From contig JACATA010000004.1 of assembly GCA_013390375.1 (NCBI GenBank), positions 1-64,000 on the forward strand: a stretch of DNA of 64,000 nt, read 5' to 3'. The DNA comes from Marine Group I thaumarchaeote (GTDB lineage: Archaea > Thermoproteota > Nitrososphaeria > Nitrososphaerales > Nitrosopumilaceae). Below the pieces are notes generated by a model. It was not told the origin of the DNA and made no database searches. It saw nothing but the letters and a program-made list of their open reading frames with translations. This document shows positions 1,259-55,896 of the stretch, piece by piece. A program made the translations under genes and the position numbers. Position 1 is the stretch's first letter; each line of letters starts with the position of its first letter.

Positions 1259-3018
1259 GAACATTCACCACTTTTTTCATTGTTTAGTATAGTTTCCTTA
1301 TCTTGATTAATTTTATCATGAATTTTATCATGAATTTGTGCAAGAATCAATTTTGCTTTTTCTTTATTTTCATATGAATCATGACTTTCGTCCATTATGG
1401 CATCAATCTCATAACTTTTATCAACTAAAATATTAGCTACGTGCTCATCAAGTGTACTTTTACCAATTAGATAGTAAGCAAAAACGGTATTCTTTTGTCC
1501 AATTCTATGCAATCTGTCTTCAGCCTGGCGATGTATTGCAGGACTCCAGTCCAATTCAGCAAATATAACATATTTTGCTCGTGTTAGATTTATTCCAAGA
1601 TTGCCAGCACGCAAACCGGCAATAAGTAACTTGGTGCCTCCATTTTGAAAACAGTCTATGTTTTCCTGTCGCACTTTATCCCTTTGACCACCAATAATTG
1701 CTGCAGGATTAAATTCTTGTAAACTTTCATGCAATAATTTATGAATATATTTATGATGGCAGAAAACTACAACACTCTCTTCAATTTCCATTATATTTTT
1801 TACAAAATCAATGACATGAGGAAGTTTTGCCACACCCGCAGCTTGTCTCTCACTTTGAATTGCTCTTTGATATGAAGCGAATTTACTAAATTCAGTTTCT
1901 GCGTTTCTTTGTTCGTCTTCAAGTTTGTTCCAAATTTTATTTAGTTCTTTTTTATAGTAAGTTTCATCAGCGTCTATTGTTTCCTTATATCTGACTTTAT
2001 CCTTTAACTCTTTTAATACATCTGATTTTTTTCTGCGAAGCATTACATCTCTTTGTAGTACGTGACGCAAACTATCACGCTTACTAGGAACCACAATCGC
2101 CTTTCCCCTTTCATCCTGATAACAGAAATATTCACAAAATTCTTTGTAATTACCTAATAATCCTGGTTTTAAGATATCAACTATTGGCCATATTTCAGAG
2201 CCATGATTATAAATTGGTGTACCAGAAAGTCCAACCCTATATTTGACTGATTTCATTCCTGCAAGTTTTTTAACTGCACTATACTTTTGGGTTGTTTTAG
2301 AACGAAGATGCTGCACCTCATCACATACAAGTGTTCGAATGTTTAATTTTGACAGATCGATTTGGCGCTTATAAAGTAACTCGTAATTGATAAGATAGAA
2401 ATCATAACCAGAGAGTTCTTTTTGTTTGCCTGAACGTATTGATGTTATAGTTGGCACACCATCCTCAGTAATACGTCCATTCTTACTCTTTTTTTTCATG
2501 AATCTTTCTATTTCACGTTGCCAATTAGTTAGTGTTACAAGCGGAGCTATTACAAGAACTGGCACTGATTGTTTTTCTGTTGCAATATATGCTAGTGTTT
2601 GAACAGTTTTGCCAAGACCCATATCATCAGCAAGTAATGCATTACCTGAAGATTTTAAAAGAAAATCTAGACCCATTTTCTGAAAGTTTAACAGTTTCCC
2701 ACGAAACTGTTTTTTGGGTATAGCTTTCGAAAGTTTTTCGATTTTTGGGTTAGATGGTTTTTTGATAACTTTAGCACGGGCTTTTCGTTGCCAAACAGAT
2801 TTTGATAATATTTCCAATGGGTATCTTTCCAAAATCAGTCTGATTTGTTTAACATTCTTTTCGTTATCGGGAATAATAACCTCGTTAGGACCATTACCAT
2901 ACCATAACTTCGGTATGAGCTTTGAAATCATCATTACAGCTCTAACTCCAGAAATTTTCCATGCCCATGAGCCCGAAAACTTGTCAATTGCATATTCAAG
3001 AGTTCCAAATGTTTTCAT
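1255..3018 (-). CDS. SNF2-family DNA-dependent ATPase/helicase
   Basis: 587 aa from the ATG at 3018 (an in-frame TTG at 3039 would add 7 residues). Helicase motifs appear in order: Walker A in DDMGLGKTVQT (motif I), VCDEVQHLRS (motif II, here DEVQ rather than the usual DEAH/DEGH), LSGTP (motif III), and in the C-terminal half GNLGINLTRA (motif V) and RQAEDRLHRIGQ (motif VI), typical of SWI2/SNF2 enzymes. The N-terminal ~100 residues contain a small beta region like that seen ahead of SMARCAL1-type translocases. These proteins translocate on double-stranded DNA and remodel protein-DNA or branched DNA structures; the specific role here is unknown. Stands alone, convergent with the DUF5679 gene. 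Confidence 0.93.
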   Translation of the reverse strand: MKTFGTLEYAIDKFSGSWAWKISGVRAVMMISKLIPKLWYGNGPNEVIIPDNEKNVKQIRLILERYPLEILSKSVWQRKARAKVIKKPSNPKIEKLSKAIPKKQFRGKLLNFQKMGLDFLLKSSGNALLADDMGLGKTVQTLAYIATEKQSVPVLVIAPLVTLTNWQREIERFMKKKSKNGRITEDGVPTITSIRSGKQKELSGYDFYLINYELLYKRQIDLSKLNIRTLVCDEVQHLRSKTTQKYSAVKKLAGMKSVKYRVGLSGTPIYNHGSEIWPIVDILKPGLLGNYKEFCEYFCYQDERGKAIVVPSKRDSLRHVLQRDVMLRRKKSDVLKELKDKVRYKETIDADETYYKKELNKIWNKLEDEQRNAETEFSKFASYQRAIQSERQAAGVAKLPHVIDFVKNIMEIEESVVVFCHHKYIHKLLHESLQEFNPAAIIGGQRDKVRQENIDCFQNGGTKLLIAGLRAGNLGINLTRAKYVIFAELDWSPAIHRQAEDRLHRIGQKNTVFAYYLIGKSTLDEHVANILVDKSYEIDAIMDESHDSYENKEKAKLILAQIHDKIHDKINQDKETILNNEKSGECS

Positions 3019-3148
3019 TGTTCCTTCGTAATTCTCCAAAATCGTTTTGGTTCTTTATGAATCTTGATTTTCTATATGAGATCGAGTTTGTTTCAAAATA
3101 GTGATATATGGGTAAAATGATTAGGTATGGCTACATGGTTATTTAGTA

Positions 3149-3265
3149 CTAATCATGTTTATGCTGAGTATCATGACAATCGCAACTGCAAAGATGGGTC
3201 TTATGGTCATTTAAACAATCAATACACTCGAAATGCTTATGATTTTCACAATTAGCACATATCAT
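3149..3265 (-). CDS. 38-aa Cys/His-rich putative zinc-binding microprotein
   Basis: A 38-codon frame on the minus strand, ATG to TAG, filling the otherwise empty gap between the helicase and the ABC permease. It contains seven Cys (positions 3, 6, 14, 17, 26, 28, 30) and seven His (9, 11, 21, 24, 31, 35, 37). The spacing C-x2-C-x7-C-x2-C-x3-H-x2-H resembles the zinc-ligand order of B-box fingers; the tail C-S-C-D-C-H could bind a second metal. Such ligand density is very unlikely by chance in an AT-rich region. I do not recognise a named family. A housekeeping metal-storage or protein-interaction role are both possible. Confidence 0.6.
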   Translation of the reverse strand: MICANCENHKHFECIDCLNDHKTHLCSCDCHDTQHKHD

Positions 3266-3338
3266 TAATGCAATTTAGAACATAACCATTGAAAAGTTTT
3301 TGCTAGAAGTTATAAAGTAAATTTCCTTAACTTATTCA

Positions 3339-4391
3339 TTGAGCTTGAAACGATACATAGCTACTAGAGGTATTACTATGTTTGGCGTTTTGATGATAAC
3401 GCTACTGTTAACAATAGCATTGGTGGGATCTAACATGGACATTATTTTAAAGCAAGGAATAGCATACCAAGTACGAGCGGAAATTACGGAAAGTCCTACT
3501 ATTGCTCAAAGCTTTGCAACTGTTGAAGAATTTGATCAATTTGTGCGGGAGCAGATTGATCAACGAATGAAGACGCTTGGACTTGATACTCCATGGTATT
3601 CCCCACAAAGAATTGGCTTTACTATGTATAAAATATTAATTCTAGATTTTGGAAATGCTACATTTCTTACAAGTGATTCTGGATCTTCAAATGTTGGTGA
3701 CATATTATTAGAAAAGATTCCAAGAACTGTTTTACTTTTCACTACAGCAACTATAATCATTTCTATAATTGGGATATTTTTGGGTGCCTTAGCAGGAAGT
3801 AAGGTAGGTTCCGTCGTTGATCGAATTACTTCGGCGTTCGCAGTCATCAGCAGTAGTTTTCCTGTTTGGTGGGTAGGGATGCTTATGATCTTTATGTTTG
3901 CATTTACATATCATATTTTTCCCGCAAGGGCAACACCGTCAATACTTCCAACAGAACCTGATTACATTCTTGCATTGCTTTATCATATGACGCTCCCACT
4001 GATTACAATTGTACTAATTGGATTTGGTACGTGGGCATACCTTGTACGCAATTTTATGGTAGGAACATTACAAGAAGATTTTATCTCAGCAAAAAAAGCC
4101 ATCGGCATTAGTAAGAAAAAGATTATCTACAAACATGCTTTAAAAAATGCTGCACCTCCAATCATCACAATTCTAGCACTAAGCCTTTCAGGTTCACTAG
4201 GCGGTGCAATAATTACAGAGGCAGTTTTTGATTGGCCTGGAATGGGACGGCTTTATTTTGAGGCAATCAGTGTGATGGACTTACCGATCATAATTGGTGC
4301 TACATATGTGCTTACGGTGTTATTTTTGATCAGTATTTTTGTTGCCGATTTACTTTATGGCTATTTTGATCCAAGGGTGAAAACAGAATGA
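3339..4391 (+). CDS. dppB: Peptide/nickel-type ABC transporter permease (DppB/OppB family)
   Basis: 350 aa. The TTG at 3339 is chosen because it supplies the KRYIATRG segment that normally precedes the first membrane helix in this family; the next ATG (3378) would cut into it. About six membrane helices, an extracytoplasmic loop of ~80 residues after helix 1, and the permease EAA-type loop (ISAKKAIGISKKKIIYKHALKN without spaces spans the coupling helix near residues 248-270), followed by the conserved EAVFDWPGMG. The family imports oligopeptides, dipeptides or nickel. Overlaps the next permease gene by 4 nt, so the two are cotranslated. No binding protein or ATPase is adjacent; one matching ATPase lies at 39963. 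Confidence 0.92.
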   Translation: MSLKRYIATRGITMFGVLMITLLLTIALVGSNMDIILKQGIAYQVRAEITESPTIAQSFATVEEFDQFVREQIDQRMKTLGLDTPWYSPQRIGFTMYKILILDFGNATFLTSDSGSSNVGDILLEKIPRTVLLFTTATIIISIIGIFLGALAGSKVGSVVDRITSAFAVISSSFPVWWVGMLMIFMFAFTYHIFPARATPSILPTEPDYILALLYHMTLPLITIVLIGFGTWAYLVRNFMVGTLQEDFISAKKAIGISKKKIIYKHALKNAAPPIITILALSLSGSLGGAIITEAVFDWPGMGRLYFEAISVMDLPIIIGATYVLTVLFLISIFVADLLYGYFDPRVKTE

Positions 4392-31804: not shown

Positions 31805-32341
31805 TTGAAAGGCGAACTATTAGAAAACAGAATTGTTGTTTGGAATATACAAGAATCTAGAAATTTATTTGCCAATGGTTATTTTGGAAAACCGATAGGG
31901 ATTCCAAAGCCAAATGTAAATGACATCAACGTTCCACTAATTTTAGATCTTATTGAGGGATGCTACCTTCAAGAAATTTCAAAAATTAAGATCACCAAAA
32001 ATGGAAAGAAAGTTTCTTTAGACACTTTAATTAAAATTTGCAGAAAGGAATATCATAATTTCGACAAGAAATTTCAAGTGTACAAAGATTTTCGAGAAAA
32101 GGGATATGTTATTAATCCTGGAATAAAATTTGGTTGTGACTTTGCAGTATACCAAAAAGGACCAGGCATTGATCATGCACCATATTTAGTACAGGTTTAC
32201 AACAAAAATGATGACATTTCTTCTACTGCCGTAGTGTTAGCAGGCAGACTAGCTAGCAGTGTTAAGAAGCAATTCATTCTAGCCATACCACGTGATAAAG
32301 ATAAAATTGATTATTTAGCACTTGACTGGTGGAGAGCTTAG
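31805..32341 (+). CDS. endA: tRNA-splicing endonuclease, catalytic subunit
   Basis: 178 aa with TTG start, the length of single-repeat archaeal EndA. The catalytic triad is visible in the C-terminal half: Tyr in GCDFAVYQKG, His in GIDHAPYLVQV and Lys in SVKKQFILA. It cuts bulge-helix-bulge (BHB) RNA at tRNA introns and rRNA processing stems. Thaumarchaeal enzymes are thought to pair this subunit with a structural partner, giving relaxed substrate choice; the partner is not in the window. Likely substrates here are tRNA-Ser(CGA), the rRNA stems and, by inference, the carB insertion at 54735. Confidence 0.95.
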   Translation: MKGELLENRIVVWNIQESRNLFANGYFGKPIGIPKPNVNDINVPLILDLIEGCYLQEISKIKITKNGKKVSLDTLIKICRKEYHNFDKKFQVYKDFREKGYVINPGIKFGCDFAVYQKGPGIDHAPYLVQVYNKNDDISSTAVVLAGRLASSVKKQFILAIPRDKDKIDYLALDWWRA

Positions 32342-50823: not shown

Positions 50824-51570
50824 ATGGTTCAAACTAAAATTATTCCCGGATATCCTGCACTCATGATTGAGGGAACTAAAAAAAGTTTAGTTATTACAGA
50901 TTTGCATTTAGGTTTTGAAAGTAATCTATCGTTAAACAACATATTCTTAGGAAAAAACAAAACTGTGATTGAAATTACTAAGGAAATTGAAGAGATAATA
51001 AAGAAAACCAAACCTGATTCGTTAATTCTACTCGGTGATGTAAAATCTGGAATTAAATCAATAACAAAAACAGAATGGGAGACTGTACCAACTTTTTTTG
51101 AAAGAATTAATAATCTAATTGATACAATTCTGGTTCCAGGAAATCATGATGCAAATATAGAAAAACTGATTCCAAATGGAATAACACTTGCTAGTTCAAA
51201 GGGAATTATTATTGATGATATTCTTTTAACTCATGGGCACACAAAGCCATCAGAAAATTTTTCGCAGGTAAATACAATTGTGATGGGTCATGTTCATCCT
51301 GTTTTTTTCCAAGAAGAATCACTCATTAATGGTGAACGAGTGTGGGTATCAATTAAGTGTAAAAAGCAGAAAATATTTTCCTCAAAGTCAGGTAAGTTGG
51401 AAATAATAATTTTGCCATCATTTAATAGATATTTTTATCCAACTCAAAAAAAATTCTATAAAAAATCAATTGCGCCTATATTGGAAAAAATAGATGTGTT
51501 ACAGGCCAAAATTGTAACGCTTGATGGTACAATAATAGGTAATGAATCATTACTGTCAGCTGTAATCTAA
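50824..51570 (+). CDS. Calcineurin-like metallophosphoesterase
   Basis: 248 aa. All metal-site motifs are present: D-x-H in ITDLHLGFE, GD in LLGDVK, GNHD in VPGNHDAN, H in LTHGHTKP and GHVHP in VMGHVHP. Resembles the archaeal branch related to the ligase-associated phosphoesterase (PdeM), implying a nuclease or nucleotide phosphatase role. Its last 4 nt overlap the 3' end of carB, convergent. Confidence 0.92.
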   Translation: MVQTKIIPGYPALMIEGTKKSLVITDLHLGFESNLSLNNIFLGKNKTVIEITKEIEEIIKKTKPDSLILLGDVKSGIKSITKTEWETVPTFFERINNLIDTILVPGNHDANIEKLIPNGITLASSKGIIIDDILLTHGHTKPSENFSQVNTIVMGHVHPVFFQEESLINGERVWVSIKCKKQKIFSSKSGKLEIIILPSFNRYFYPTQKKFYKKSIAPILEKIDVLQAKIVTLDGTIIGNESLLSAVI

Positions 51571-54500
51571 TTAACGTCTTTGTATGATCCTAATGGTTCT
51601 TTTGATGTTTCGTTTTTTTGTAACCACTCTAGTGTTTTAACAAATGATTCCGCTAATTCGATAGTTGAAAGAACTGGAATGCCTAATTCTAATGACTTTC
51701 TTCGTATTTGATATTCATCATAAAGCATTCCAACATATTTTTCCAGAGTTGATGTGTTTGGAATATTTATAATAAAATCAATTTTTTTCTCATAAAGCAA
51801 ATCAGAAATGTTTGGTTTTCTTTCTGGCTCACTAATTTTATGGACAACTTTAACATCTCCTAGTTCTTTCTCAAAAAATTCTGCTGTGGTCTCGGTTGCA
51901 AAAATTTTGAAACCCAAATTTATTAAAAGCGCCGACGTCTGCAATAATTTTTCTCGATTTTCAATACCACCAATTGTAATAAGTGCTGAACCAGTCTTTG
52001 GAAGGTTATAACCAACGGATGTCAATCCCTTTGATAATGCATCATAAAAGCTATTTCCAAAACATGCTGCCTCACCTGTTGACTGCATTTCAACCCCTAA
52101 TACAATATCTGCGCCTTCAAGCTGCATGAAAGAAAATTGTGGAACTTTTATGCCGTACAACCCAGTATTCAACCACATATCTTGAGGTATATTCGGAATA
52201 TCTTTTCCTAATATTGCCTTCGCAGCCAAGCCAATCATGTTTAATTTAATAAACTTGGAAACAAATGGCATAGAACGAGACGCACGAACATTTAACTCTA
52301 TGACATATGCTTGCTCGTTTTGTACTAAAAATTGTAAATTAAATGGTCCTTTAATGTTGAATTCTTTAGCAATTGTATTTGTAGAATCAGTAATGTTCTC
52401 AATAATCTTATTGCTTAATCTCCAAGGTGGTATACACATCATTGCATCGCCGGAATGAACACCTGCACTGTCTATGTGTTCAACTATTGCGCCAATCGCT
52501 ACGTTTTTTCCATCACAAATCCCATCTACGTCAACTTCTAATGCGTCAAGCATAAACTTTGTAATTACAACTGGATGATCGGGCGATACTATTGTTGCTT
52601 CATCAACAAATTTTTTAAGTCCAGTCTGTGACCAAACTACCTTCATGGCTGCGCCGCTGAGCACATATGATGGCCTTACCAATACAGGATAACCAACCTC
52701 CAGTGCAAAGTTTTTAGCATCAGTAATGTTGGTGAATGTTTGCCAAGATGGCTGCCTTATATGAAGTCTATCCAAAACCTGGCTAAACTTTGAACGGTTT
52801 TCAGCCCTATCCACATCCACAGCATTTGTTCCAATAAGGGTAATTCCACTATCAGCTAACTTTGGTGTGAGATTGTTTGCCGTTTGGCCACCAACAGATG
52901 TCACAACACCTTTTGGTTTTTCAAATTCGGATATATCTAAAATTCGTTCAAGTGTAAGTTCTTCAAAATAAAGTCGATTACATATATCATAATCCGTTGA
53001 TACAGTTTCAGGGTTACAATTTACTACAATAATATTTTTTTGACCACCATCCTGAAGACCCCAAACCATGTTCACAGTTCCCCAGTCAAATTCTACACTG
53101 CTTCCAATTCGGTAAGGACCCGCACCAAGAACTATAATTCCCCTATCTACACTTGCAATAGAAATATCATTCTCTGTTCCACCATAAGTAAGATAGAGAT
53201 AGTTAGTTTCTGCGGGCCACTCTGCTGCTAGTGTATCAATTTGCTTAACTGCTGGTATAATACCAAAATCTTTTCTAATTTTTCTTACTTCCAATTCCTC
53301 TTTATTAACAGCTCGGCCAATCTGCTTATCAGAAAATCCAAATTTTTTTGCAGTCGATAAAAGTTTTTGATTTAGTGGTGATGATTTTAATCTTGTTTCG
53401 ATCTCAACAATGTTATTAATTTTTTCTAAGAACCATGGTTCAATTGATGAAAGACGGTAAATTTTTTCAATTGATATGCCTTTACGGAGTGCAGCTACAA
53501 CATAGTATAATATATTATCATCAAGAGTTTGTAGACGTTCCTCAATTTGTTCCTCATCAAACGATTCGCCGTTTTGACGGTTTAAAACAAGTCCATCCTT
53601 TCCGATATCAAGCATCCTAATTGATTTTTGCAGTACTTCTTCGAAGTTTCGCCCAATCGCCATTACTTCGCCAACAGACTTCATTGTAGGACCTAGACTC
53701 CTATTAGCAAGTTCAAATTTTGTAAAATCCCATCTTGGATGTTTGCATACTATGTAGTCCAACGCTGGTTCAAAACAGGCAGTAGTTTTTTTCGTAATAG
53801 TGTTAACTAATTCTGGTAATGAATAGCCAAGTCCTATCTTTGCGGACATGTATGCCAATGGATATCCAGTAGCCTTACTTGCCAGAGCAGAAGAACGTGA
53901 AAGTCTAGGGTTGATTTCAATAGCTGCATACTCATCAGAAGACTGGTCTAATGCAAATTGAATATTACATTCTCCTACAATTCCGACATGTTTTGTTGCT
54001 TGTAGTGCTGCAGATCTTAACATATGATATTCGTGGTTATCTATTGTTTGAGATGGTGCAACAACTATGTTATCGCCAGTATGAACCTTCATTGAAAGCA
54101 CATTTTCCATATTACAGACTATGACACTATTTTTTGAATAGTCTTGCATAACTTCATACTCAATTTGTTTCCAATTACCAACATACTCTTCAACTAGTAT
54201 TTGCCCAACAAGACTTGCTGCGAGACCACGACCAGTAATTTCATACAGTTCTATCTCATTAAATGCAACACCACCACCCTTTCCTCCAAGTGTGTATGCT
54301 ACTCTAACGATTACAGGATAGCCTAATTCTTTTGCTGCTTTTTTTGCCTCATCAAATGTACGAACTGTTTTACTTTTTAAAATTGGTACATTACATTTAA
54401 TCATCGAGTCCTTGAACTTCTGTCTGTCTTCTGTTGCCATAATTCCTGGAATTTGAGTACCCAAAACTGAAACGCCGTATTTTTTTAGTATCCCAGATTC

Positions 54501-54820
54501 ATCAATTTTTACACCACAGTTTAGTGCAGTCTGACCACCATAGCTTAACATAATACCATCAGGTCTTTCTTTTTCAATAATTGACTCTACATACTGTGGA
54601 GTGATTGGCAAAAGATAGACCTGATCAGCAAACCTAGTGTCAGTTTGAATCGTCGCAATATTTGGATTAATTAGAATGCTCTTGAGTCCATCCTCGTGGA
54701 TTGCTTTGAGGCATTGGCTTCCGGAGTAGTCGAATTGACGGTCGGTTTATCGACTTTCGCCCGCTTCTCCGATTTTAATAGCCCCACTACCAAGAACAAG
54801 AATTTTTTCTAACGTCTCAT
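51567..54820 (-). CDS. carB: Carbamoyl-phosphate synthase large subunit, interrupted by a 21-nt intron-like insertion
   Basis: The continuous frame from a TTG at 54611 gives 1014 aa, but CarB needs ~60 more N-terminal residues. These are encoded further upstream in the same frame: LEKILVLGSGAIKIGEAGE (54758-54814) and FDYSGSQCLKAIHED... from 54734, separated by an in-frame 21-nt insertion with a TAA stop. Spliced, the chain is about 1075 aa, normal for CarB, with two ATP-grasp halves and the C-terminal MGS domain. It makes carbamoyl phosphate for arginine and pyrimidines with CarA. The natural ATG (54820, in the ATGA overlap with the carA stop) is out of frame by one nt; no ATG, GTG or TTG is in frame. 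I place the start there tentatively. Confidence 0.85.
54735..54755 (-). other. Putative 21-nt bulge-helix-bulge intron in carB
   Basis: Minus-strand reading: exon GGCGAA, insertion, exon TTCGAC. The insertion contains an in-frame TAA; deleting it makes GGC GAA TTC GAC, i.e. the invariant GEFD. Fold: exon GGCG (54758-54761) pairs with intron CGTC (54737-54740), 4 bp with one G-U. Inner stem GTCG/CGAC closes a 6-nt loop. Bulges are AAA (54755-54757) and AAT (54734-54736); the cuts AA/A and AA/T are the second-third position cuts of archaeal EndA. A distal CGGAG/CTCCG stem (54767-54771 with 54722-54726) brackets it. A competing AGTCGA/TCGACT pairing also exists. Confidence 0.7.
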
Positions 54821-55896
54821 GTTTTCCCAGTTTTTCCCTCCTCCATGATATTTTTCAGCTCATCAAAAATGAATTTACAATCGTAAGGTCCAGGTGATGC
54901 CTCCGGATGAAATTGAACTGCAATACATTTTTTATTTTTATGCTTAACACCTTCTACAGTTTTATCGTCAACATTAGAAAACCATAAATCAAATTCAGTG
55001 TTGTTTAACGAATCTGGATTTATACAATAACCGTGATTTTGGCTAGTAACATAAACCTGATTGTTATCTAGGTTTACACAGGGCTTGTTTTGTCCCCTAT
55101 GTCCATATTTTAGTTTGTATGTTTGAGCACCGCCTGCTACTGCCAAAATTTGTGCGCCAAGACAAATTCCTAATGTAGGAATATTTTTTTCAATTAATGA
55201 TTTGGCGGTAGAAATAGTCTCTAGGCAATTTTCAGGATCCCCCGGACCATTACTTATTACAACACCTTTTGGTTCATGTTTTAGAATTTCTTCAATACTT
55301 GTATCCCACGGAACTTTCACAGTATTATATCCTATATCATGAATATTTCGTATTATTGCATTCTTCGCACCGGTATCAATTAGAACAACATTTTGTGATT
55401 GGTTTCCAAATTTCTCCACTTTCTTAGTAGAGACCGAATTCATGAATTTTTCATGATTATAATTTGGTGCAGATTTTAACTTGTTTTTAATATCATTTTC
55501 ATCTATTTCACTATCAGAAACAGCCAATGCGCCCATCATAACTCCTGATTCCCTTAGTTTTTTTGTTAATTCTCGTGTATCAATACCAGAAATCCCTTGA
55601 ATTTTTTCATTATACAACCACTCGTCAAGGGTCATGATAAGATTCCAATGGCTCGCGAGTAGGGATAGTTCATGAACTACTAGACCACGAACCTGAATTT
55701 TATCTGATTCAAAAAACTTGGATAATCCATCCGCTTTGAGTGTAGGATCAGGAACACCATAATTTCCCACTAGTGGATAAGTTAGAGTAACAATTTGACC
55801 AGAATAAGAAGGATCTGTAAGTGTTTCGGTGTAACCTACCATTCCTGTATTAAATACAATTTCGCCAAAAGTTAATCCAGAATAACCAAATCCCAT
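54817..55896 (-). CDS. carA: Carbamoyl-phosphate synthase small subunit
   Basis: 359 aa from ATG 55896, but this start cuts off conserved CarA sequence: the frame continues upstream without stop through GKLILSDGSVFDG, which belongs to the family N terminus. No ATG, GTG or TTG is in frame up to the TAA at 56007; the best candidate is an ATA at 55965 giving KESKHANKFGKLILS and ~382 aa, the normal length. TATA (CTTAAATT, about 56002-56009) predicts a start near 55979. Glutaminase triad GICLGAQ (Cys), AVQFHPEASPGP (His, Glu) is intact. Supplies ammonia to CarB; the stop overlaps the carB ATG. Confidence 0.93.
   Translation of the reverse strand: MGFGYSGLTFGEIVFNTGMVGYTETLTDPSYSGQIVTLTYPLVGNYGVPDPTLKADGLSKFFESDKIQVRGLVVHELSLLASHWNLIMTLDEWLYNEKIQGISGIDTRELTKKLRESGVMMGALAVSDSEIDENDIKNKLKSAPNYNHEKFMNSVSTKKVEKFGNQSQNVVLIDTGAKNAIIRNIHDIGYNTVKVPWDTSIEEILKHEPKGVVISNGPGDPENCLETISTAKSLIEKNIPTLGICLGAQILAVAGGAQTYKLKYGHRGQNKPCVNLDNNQVYVTSQNHGYCINPDSLNNTEFDLWFSNVDDKTVEGVKHKNKKCIAVQFHPEASPGPYDCKFIFDELKNIMEEGKTGKT

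Follow-up and report, generated by a model that had tools for sequence, protein, structure and literature searches.

We found that the essential gene for the large subunit of carbamoyl-phosphate synthase (carB) in this thaumarchaeote is interrupted, on the minus strand, by a 21-nucleotide (nt) insert, almost certainly an RNA intron that has gone unnoticed and that needs removal before the enzyme can be made. On the comparative evidence, we consider it very probable that the insert is a miniature bulge-helix-bulge (BHB) intron in the carB pre-mRNA, spliced by the tRNA-splicing endonuclease EndA and the ligase RtcB. The presence of the insert, its spread, its variation in length, its covariation, the constraint on the surrounding exons, and the EndA and RtcB genes were established by comparison. 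The gene lies in the window (the whole 64,000-nt stretch analyzed here), which is part of contig C36 of G000, a 1.05-Mb draft genome in 37 contigs. Exon 1 (54756 to 54830, minus strand) comprises 25 codons from a probable CTG start to GEAGE, as delimited by frame and homology with the start codon inferred. It is followed by the insert (54735 to 54755, minus strand; AGTCGATAAACCGACCGTCAA, with an in-frame TAA), which is bounded by the reading frame and by its recurrence at the same site in relatives. Exon 2 (51567 to 54734, minus strand), the remainder of the large subunit, is open as far as the stop at 51567. With the insert, the translation reads ...GSGAIKIGEAGE | SR*TDRQ | FDYSGSQ..., and CarB is split between GEAGE and FDYSG. 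Exact deletion of the 21 nt leaves a reading frame of 1,077 open codons with the junction GEAGEFDYSG, and the resulting protein matches TIGR01369 at 1,408 bits over profile positions 4 to 1051 of 1052.

These results bear out the first-pass annotation, which had described an in-frame, TAA-containing segment whose removal restores the CarB motif. It was also correct in calling the rest of carB intact, but its figure of 1,014 codons belongs to a mechanical open reading frame (ORF) starting at TTG 54611; ORF callers would place the carB start at that codon. A second intact carB, which would have spoken against splicing, was looked for in genome G000, where only one full-length CarB is encoded. 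Translation of carB probably starts at the CTG at 54830 to 54828, which lies behind a GGAGG and overlaps the end of carA; a CTG is also found at the corresponding position in the relative L033. The carA gene itself (54817 to 55896, minus strand) was taken from the ORF list, lies directly 5' of carB, probably overlapping its start, and was assigned to the small subunit on the basis of gene order and reading.

The insert is widespread in the order Nitrososphaerales, a fact unavailable to the first-pass annotation. In species of the same genus, family, and order, a protein search that read through stops recovered carB genes containing one stop and additional nucleotides, and the DNA of these relatives showed that the insert splits the same codon at the same phase. 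In an even sample of 400 genomes from the order, a loose DNA pattern detected the insert in 212, of which ∼211 are true and one (G091) is clearly not carB; by this pattern, carriers account for 125 of 209 good genomes and 43 of 66 genera. The reversed pattern, used as a control, gave 0 matches in the same 400 genomes, and chance was ruled out by this contrast with the same-site insert in more than 200 genomes. Carriers include single-contig assemblies, “Candidatus Nitrosotalea devanaterra” (L218, LN890280.1, with a 20-nt version), “Candidatus Nitrosotalea bavarica” (L195), “Candidatus Nitrosopumilus salaria” (L198), and other assemblies of the same genus as G000, such as G011 (= L207), which is labeled a single strain. 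The insert is likewise present in G031 and G090 and absent from G127. Nearly all the evidence for the intron comes from DNA, and metagenome assemblies supply much of it.

We extracted 260 loci (some genomes being represented more than once), 211 with the insert and 49 without it, in 105 unique contexts. The first-pass annotation had proposed aligning carB of related thaumarchaea for presence or absence of the 21 nt; among the extracted loci, 211 of the 260 have a same-site insert. Their lengths were 20 nt (24 loci), 21 nt (124), 22 nt (39), and 23 to 34 nt (24), and the frame-breaking lengths of 20, 22, 25, and 26 nt were seen in clean genes. The stop codon within the insert was TAA, TGA, or absent and was not conserved across loci. 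Two genomes, G382 (L102 and L112) and G293 (L124 and C35), each held two different intron-bearing carB genes and are likely mixed bins. Separately, the second half of carB in the single-contig relative L033 (G036:C1; record positions 1154715 to 1155701) contains a TGA, and the first-half frame ends early (662 amino acids), a possible second interruption or frameshift.

Drawn on the window's sequence, the insert and its borders form two opposed bulges around a short helix (all minus strand). Exonic GGCG (54758 to 54761) is predicted to pair with intronic CGTC (54737 to 54740) in a central helix containing one G-U pair. On one side is the 5' bulge A A^A (54755 to 54757; predicted cut between 54756 and 54755), on the other the 3' bulge A A^T (54734 to 54736; predicted cut between 54735 and 54734), and the intron closes on itself in an inner stem-loop with a 6-nt loop, GTCG-ATAAAC-CGAC (54741 to 54754), in which covariation was found. 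All of these elements are as the first-pass annotation had claimed. Two opposed 3-nt bulges were present in 105 of 105 unique contexts, with the 5' bulge reading A R^A/T and the 3' bulge AAT, AGT, or ATT in every one. The consensus over all unique contexts was ...G-G-C/T-G-A-R^N on the 5' side and ...C-G/A-N-N-A-N^T on the 3' side. A cut after the second base of each bulge would give exactly the functional junction, and this register is the same in the 211 insert-bearing loci.

Because the DNA pattern fixes some of the helix bases, we took covariation figures only from an unbiased set of 52 unique introns found by protein search. Three pairs of the central helix (exonic GGCG with intronic CGNN) formed in all 52, and the outermost, fourth pair formed in 47. 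In L149 an exonic C-to-T change is matched by an intronic G-to-A change, giving a compensatory GGTG/CACC in place of GGCG/CGCC. All four inner pairs formed in 52 of 52 introns, whereas swapping the arms between loci gave 29.2 on average and 35 at most. When the drawn structure was laid on the 36 unique 21-nt introns, 98.8% of cells were paired, against 14 to 52% for slid versions, and three of the four inner-stem pairs had changed on both sides, as expected of compensatory change.

Further out, the two exons are predicted to pair with each other. The outer stems, within 54722 to 54771 on the minus strand, are CGGAG/CTCCG (54771 to 54767 with 54726 to 54722) and AGC/GACT (54765 to 54763 with 54731, 54729, and 54728), both built on synonymous codons fixed only in intron-bearing genes. 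A further stem, GGGGC (54785 to 54781) with GCCTC (54712 to 54708), spans 54708 to 54785; both of its halves are present in 80 of 98 intron-bearing but only 2 of 50 intron-less loci. The exon-side helix, which had been described as poor, is thus better than that description with these three stems included, but the description holds for the pairs immediately beside the 3' bulge, which are irregular. Because of this irregularity just outside the 3' bulge, we classify the carB element as a relaxed rather than a textbook BHB.

Calculated folding energies do not single out this structure. For the window's sequence, Vienna gave a minimum of −17.5 kcal/mol versus −13.9 kcal/mol for the drawn BHB, which lies 3.6 kcal/mol above it; across 104 sequences the drawn BHB was within 3 kcal/mol of the minimum in 90 and identical to it in only 8. 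We rejected minimum-energy folding as proof of a BHB on these counts and because the energy model does not favor opposed bulges. The competing AGTCGA/TCGACT pairing noted in the first pass is real, and the Vienna energies prefer the competing fold for the window's sequence; the match is absent from most other species. Group I and group II introns have a catalytic core of hundreds of nucleotides, whereas these inserts are 20 to 34 nt long and returned no Rfam match at E ≤ 1.

The codons on which the outer stems are built differ with the presence of the insert. Intron-bearing genes almost always read ATC GGA ... GGC GAR | TTY GAC TAC TCC GG, and intron-less relatives mostly ATT GGT ... GGA GAA TTT GAT TAT TCT. 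At the five exon-helix codons, GC content at third positions was 0.97 in genes with the intron versus 0.34 further down the same genes; for the same codons in intron-less relatives it was 0.15, versus 0.21 elsewhere in the genes. This codon usage indicates that synonymous positions in the exons are under constraint only in genes that carry the insert. Codons bent to an RNA fold in this way would provide a clean case of synonymous constraint imposed by splicing.

An insert with a hairpin and a stop codon near a possible take-off site also recalls programmed translational bypass, known from phage T4 gene 60, in which the ribosome would hop the hairpin from GAA to TTC and would tolerate inserts of varied length. 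We regard this explanation as very unlikely for carB. Bypass does not require pairing of exon 1 with the 3' end of the intron, a pair of 3-nt bulges facing each other, or long stems between the exons, yet all three are conserved, and the bulges sit where EndA would cut in every unique context. Stop codons vary, and some inserts have no in-frame stop but shift the frame. Nor did we find matched take-off and landing codons: GAA or GAG precedes the gap, whereas the inserts end variably in CAA, CAG, TAA, CAT, or AAA, none of them a match to GAR. We know of no archaeal case of bypass.

The splicing reading accords with the gene content of the genome. The window encodes the catalytic (alpha) subunit of EndA, the splicing endonuclease (31805 to 32341, plus strand, TTG start; PF01974 at 4.5e-32 and PF02778 at 1.6e-16), which can be aligned from end to end with 2cv8 and 3p1z, two archaeal enzymes, and keeps the catalytic Tyr, His, and Lys positions. 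A second EndA-family protein (beta), in which the His is absent, is encoded on contig C16 of the same genome, and the single RtcB gene is on contig C12. Cutting and ligation, and what then becomes of the excised intron, are inferred. In the carB transcript, GGCG near the end of exon 1 would pair with intronic CGTC, the intron would close its own hairpin, and exons 1 and 2 would pair outside it. A heteromeric, alpha2beta2-type EndA would make the cuts AA^A and AA^T, after which RtcB would join ...GGCGAA to TTCGAC..., restoring the GEFDYSG of CarB. The predicted spliced junction, GGCGAR|TTYGACTACTCCGG, should be diagnostic, since only 1 of 400 genomes has these codons in intron-free genomic DNA.

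Splicing by a nuclease-ligase pair other than EndA and RtcB would be in keeping with the irregular helix beside the 3' bulge and with the many energy minima that differ from a BHB. Such a pair seems even less probable than bypass, since EndA substrates have the same two bulges, 4-bp spacing, and cut registers, and the heteromeric EndA present here is of the alpha2beta2 type reported for Thaumarchaeota and linked to unusual and diverse introns (PMC4090602).

The two exons show few nonsynonymous changes. For exon 1, pN/pS was 0.046 with the insert and 0.042 without it, a value that the motif filter biases little because only three protein-found loci failed the filter; for exon 2 it was 0.181. 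These ratios indicate purifying selection on both exons of intron-bearing carB, equally strong with and without the insert for exon 1, which would serve no purpose if it were not joined to exon 2. They bear on gene decay, by which the insertion would have broken carB so that a truncated CarB, or none, is made. The in-frame stop and the lack of a second carB are what decay would predict, but we consider it exceedingly unlikely: hundreds of genomes share the insert in genes that are otherwise intact and under selection, the fold of the insert is maintained by compensatory changes, and translation from a downstream start would lose the near-invariant GSGxIxIGExGEFDYSG motif. Just as improbable is an error of sequencing or assembly, or a duplication by template switching confined to this one assembly. 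The assembly is a draft in 37 contigs, and exon 2 of this genome contains TCGACT, the reverse complement of AGTCGA in the insert. Most other species lack that match, however, and the insert recurs in same-genus, single-contig, and “Ca. Nitrosotalea devanaterra” assemblies. Sharing of the insert by so many assemblies and species therefore excludes, in substance, both assembly error and decay, and it likewise answers the concern, raised in the first pass, that raw reads might lack the insertion. Readthrough, with the stop read as an amino acid and the insert retained as seven extra residues, would suit the 124 of 211 insert-bearing loci that hold an in-frame 21 nt but is practically inconceivable, since many insert lengths break the frame, the stops are not conserved, and the extra residues would interrupt an invariant motif. 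The BHB intron originally proposed thus appears well supported at the sequence level by the same site across species, frame-breaking lengths, covariation, exon constraint, the presence of EndA and RtcB, and a single carB.

The distribution of the intron within Nitrososphaerales is patchy. On a carB tree built without the helix codons, its presence or absence changes at least 13 times, 5 of them forced by well-supported branches. G004 and G012 (L008 and L009), the nearest relatives without the insert, are nested among carriers and retain the intron-type upstream codons ATCGGAGAAGCGGGCGAA; by sequence, each looks like a recent exact loss. Intron-type exon codons without an intron (GGAGAGGCCGGCGAGTTCGACTACTCCGG) were found in only one genome of the 400 (L446, G119:C53:69796-69824), likely a very recent exact loss, perhaps through cDNA. 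The history within the order is probably that of one old intron with repeated precise losses, the simplest reading; several gains would also be compatible with the carB tree. Among the matches listed for a 250-genome sample of the phylum, none outside Nitrososphaerales was an interrupted carB.

Candidate mini-introns at the same carB site also occur in several genomes of archaea outside the order (DPANN). On a contig labeled “Candidatus Woesearchaeota” (L252, 2160 to 2310, minus strand), recovered by the DNA pattern, carB carries two inserts, one of 21 nt at the shared site and another of 32 nt ∼23 nt upstream, between GSGA and LKIG; most carB genes found in 193 related genomes lack an insert. 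Other BHB-like carB inserts in DPANN archaea, whose bounds (L430 to L435) were read by hand, occur in L430 (29 and 18 nt), L431 (21 nt), L432 (20 nt), L433 (29 nt), and L435 (23 nt). In L435 the junction is shifted by 1 nt, and the exon-intron helix is a different one, CTGA/TCAG, that remains complementary. The DPANN inserts may stem from horizontal transfer or from repeated insertion. We suggest, tentatively and at somewhat less than even confidence, that BHB mini-introns have entered carB more than once, in Nitrososphaeria and in DPANN, and that the codons around GEAGEF form a hot spot for them. If so, miniature EndA-spliced introns would be a broad, unnoticed class in archaeal mRNA that gene callers miss. 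The 18-nt insert in L430 would rank among the shortest mRNA introns. L252 also encodes, between carA and its two-intron carB, a 448-amino-acid ORF (2258 to 3604, minus strand) with homing-endonuclease-associated repeats (PF18780, 7.5e-33), possibly linked to intron spread.

Splicing of coding sequence in archaeal pre-mRNA has so far been known from cbf5 alone, and carB would be the second such gene. In 2009, cbf5 was the only archaeal mRNA with confirmed splicing (PMC2738675), and a 2020 paper named it as the only other BHB intron besides the 5' untranslated region (UTR) element described there (PMC7714728). The first-pass annotation knew of no intron in carB, and we found no earlier report of one; novelty is provisional because our search covered open-licence literature only. 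The BHB-folded cbf5 introns of Crenarchaeota (Watanabe 2002; Yokobori 2009, PMC2738675) likewise interrupt coding sequence, are patchy through gain and repeated loss, and have been misread in databases as frameshift or decay (PMC2738675). The carB intron differs from them in gene, position, and lineage, is not found in cbf5, and, unlike the cbf5 introns, is framed by long exon-exon stems with synonymous constraint. It is also shorter, at 20 to 34 nt (18 nt in the DPANN relative) versus 36 bp for two Staphylothermus cbf5 introns (PMC2738675). The cbf5 study scored Cenarchaeum and Nitrosopumilus 0 (PMC2738675).

Other systems share parts of this arrangement. The HVO_1309 5' UTR element of Haloferax likewise places BHB sites in an mRNA and is cleaved by EndA there, whereas cleavage is predicted for carB; that element is untranslated, whereas the carB insert lies inside a conserved coding motif and requires exact removal (PMC7714728). 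Archaeal tRNA introns resemble the carB insert in their exon-intron central helix, two opposed 3-nt bulges, and shortness, but in carB the host is an mRNA and the outer scaffold is coding sequence under synonymous constraint rather than a tRNA. Putative 12-bp introns of rudivirus SIRV1 are likewise very short inserts in archaeal coding genes; as cited in a later paper, they arose during infection and their splicing is putative, whereas the carB insert is kept across an order (Peng 2004, cited in PMC2738675).

CarB is central to the synthesis of pyrimidines and arginine, and carriers make up about half of the sampled genomes in a group that includes ocean and soil ammonia oxidizers, cultured ones among them. 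In carriers, automated annotation would list carB as broken or as too short at its N terminus. The genomes form a natural series (intron kept, intron recently lost, and lengths of 18 to 34 nt) for gauging the smallest spliceable mRNA intron and for studying how EndA reads mRNA and how introns enter and leave coding genes.

We compared G000 with the intron-less G026 of the same genus for further mini-introns, by tblastn of G026 ORFs (1.20 of 1.23 Mb) against G000 (all but the ∼2.9 kb of C36 lying outside the window) and, in reverse, of G000 ORFs (1.00 Mb) against G026. In this comparison, which is blind to introns at the same place in both genomes or near gene ends, carB was the only clean mini-intron difference in both directions. 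Other matches were rejected as spurious reverse-frame ORFs or low-identity matches, and viral contigs yielded no instance of the intron pattern or of the spliced junction. One region of G000 (L286, contig C8, 15945 to 16481) is a low-complexity Gly-Pro-rich repeat that, on the opposite strand, resembles a gene for collagen-like repeats, and a similar region is present in G026.
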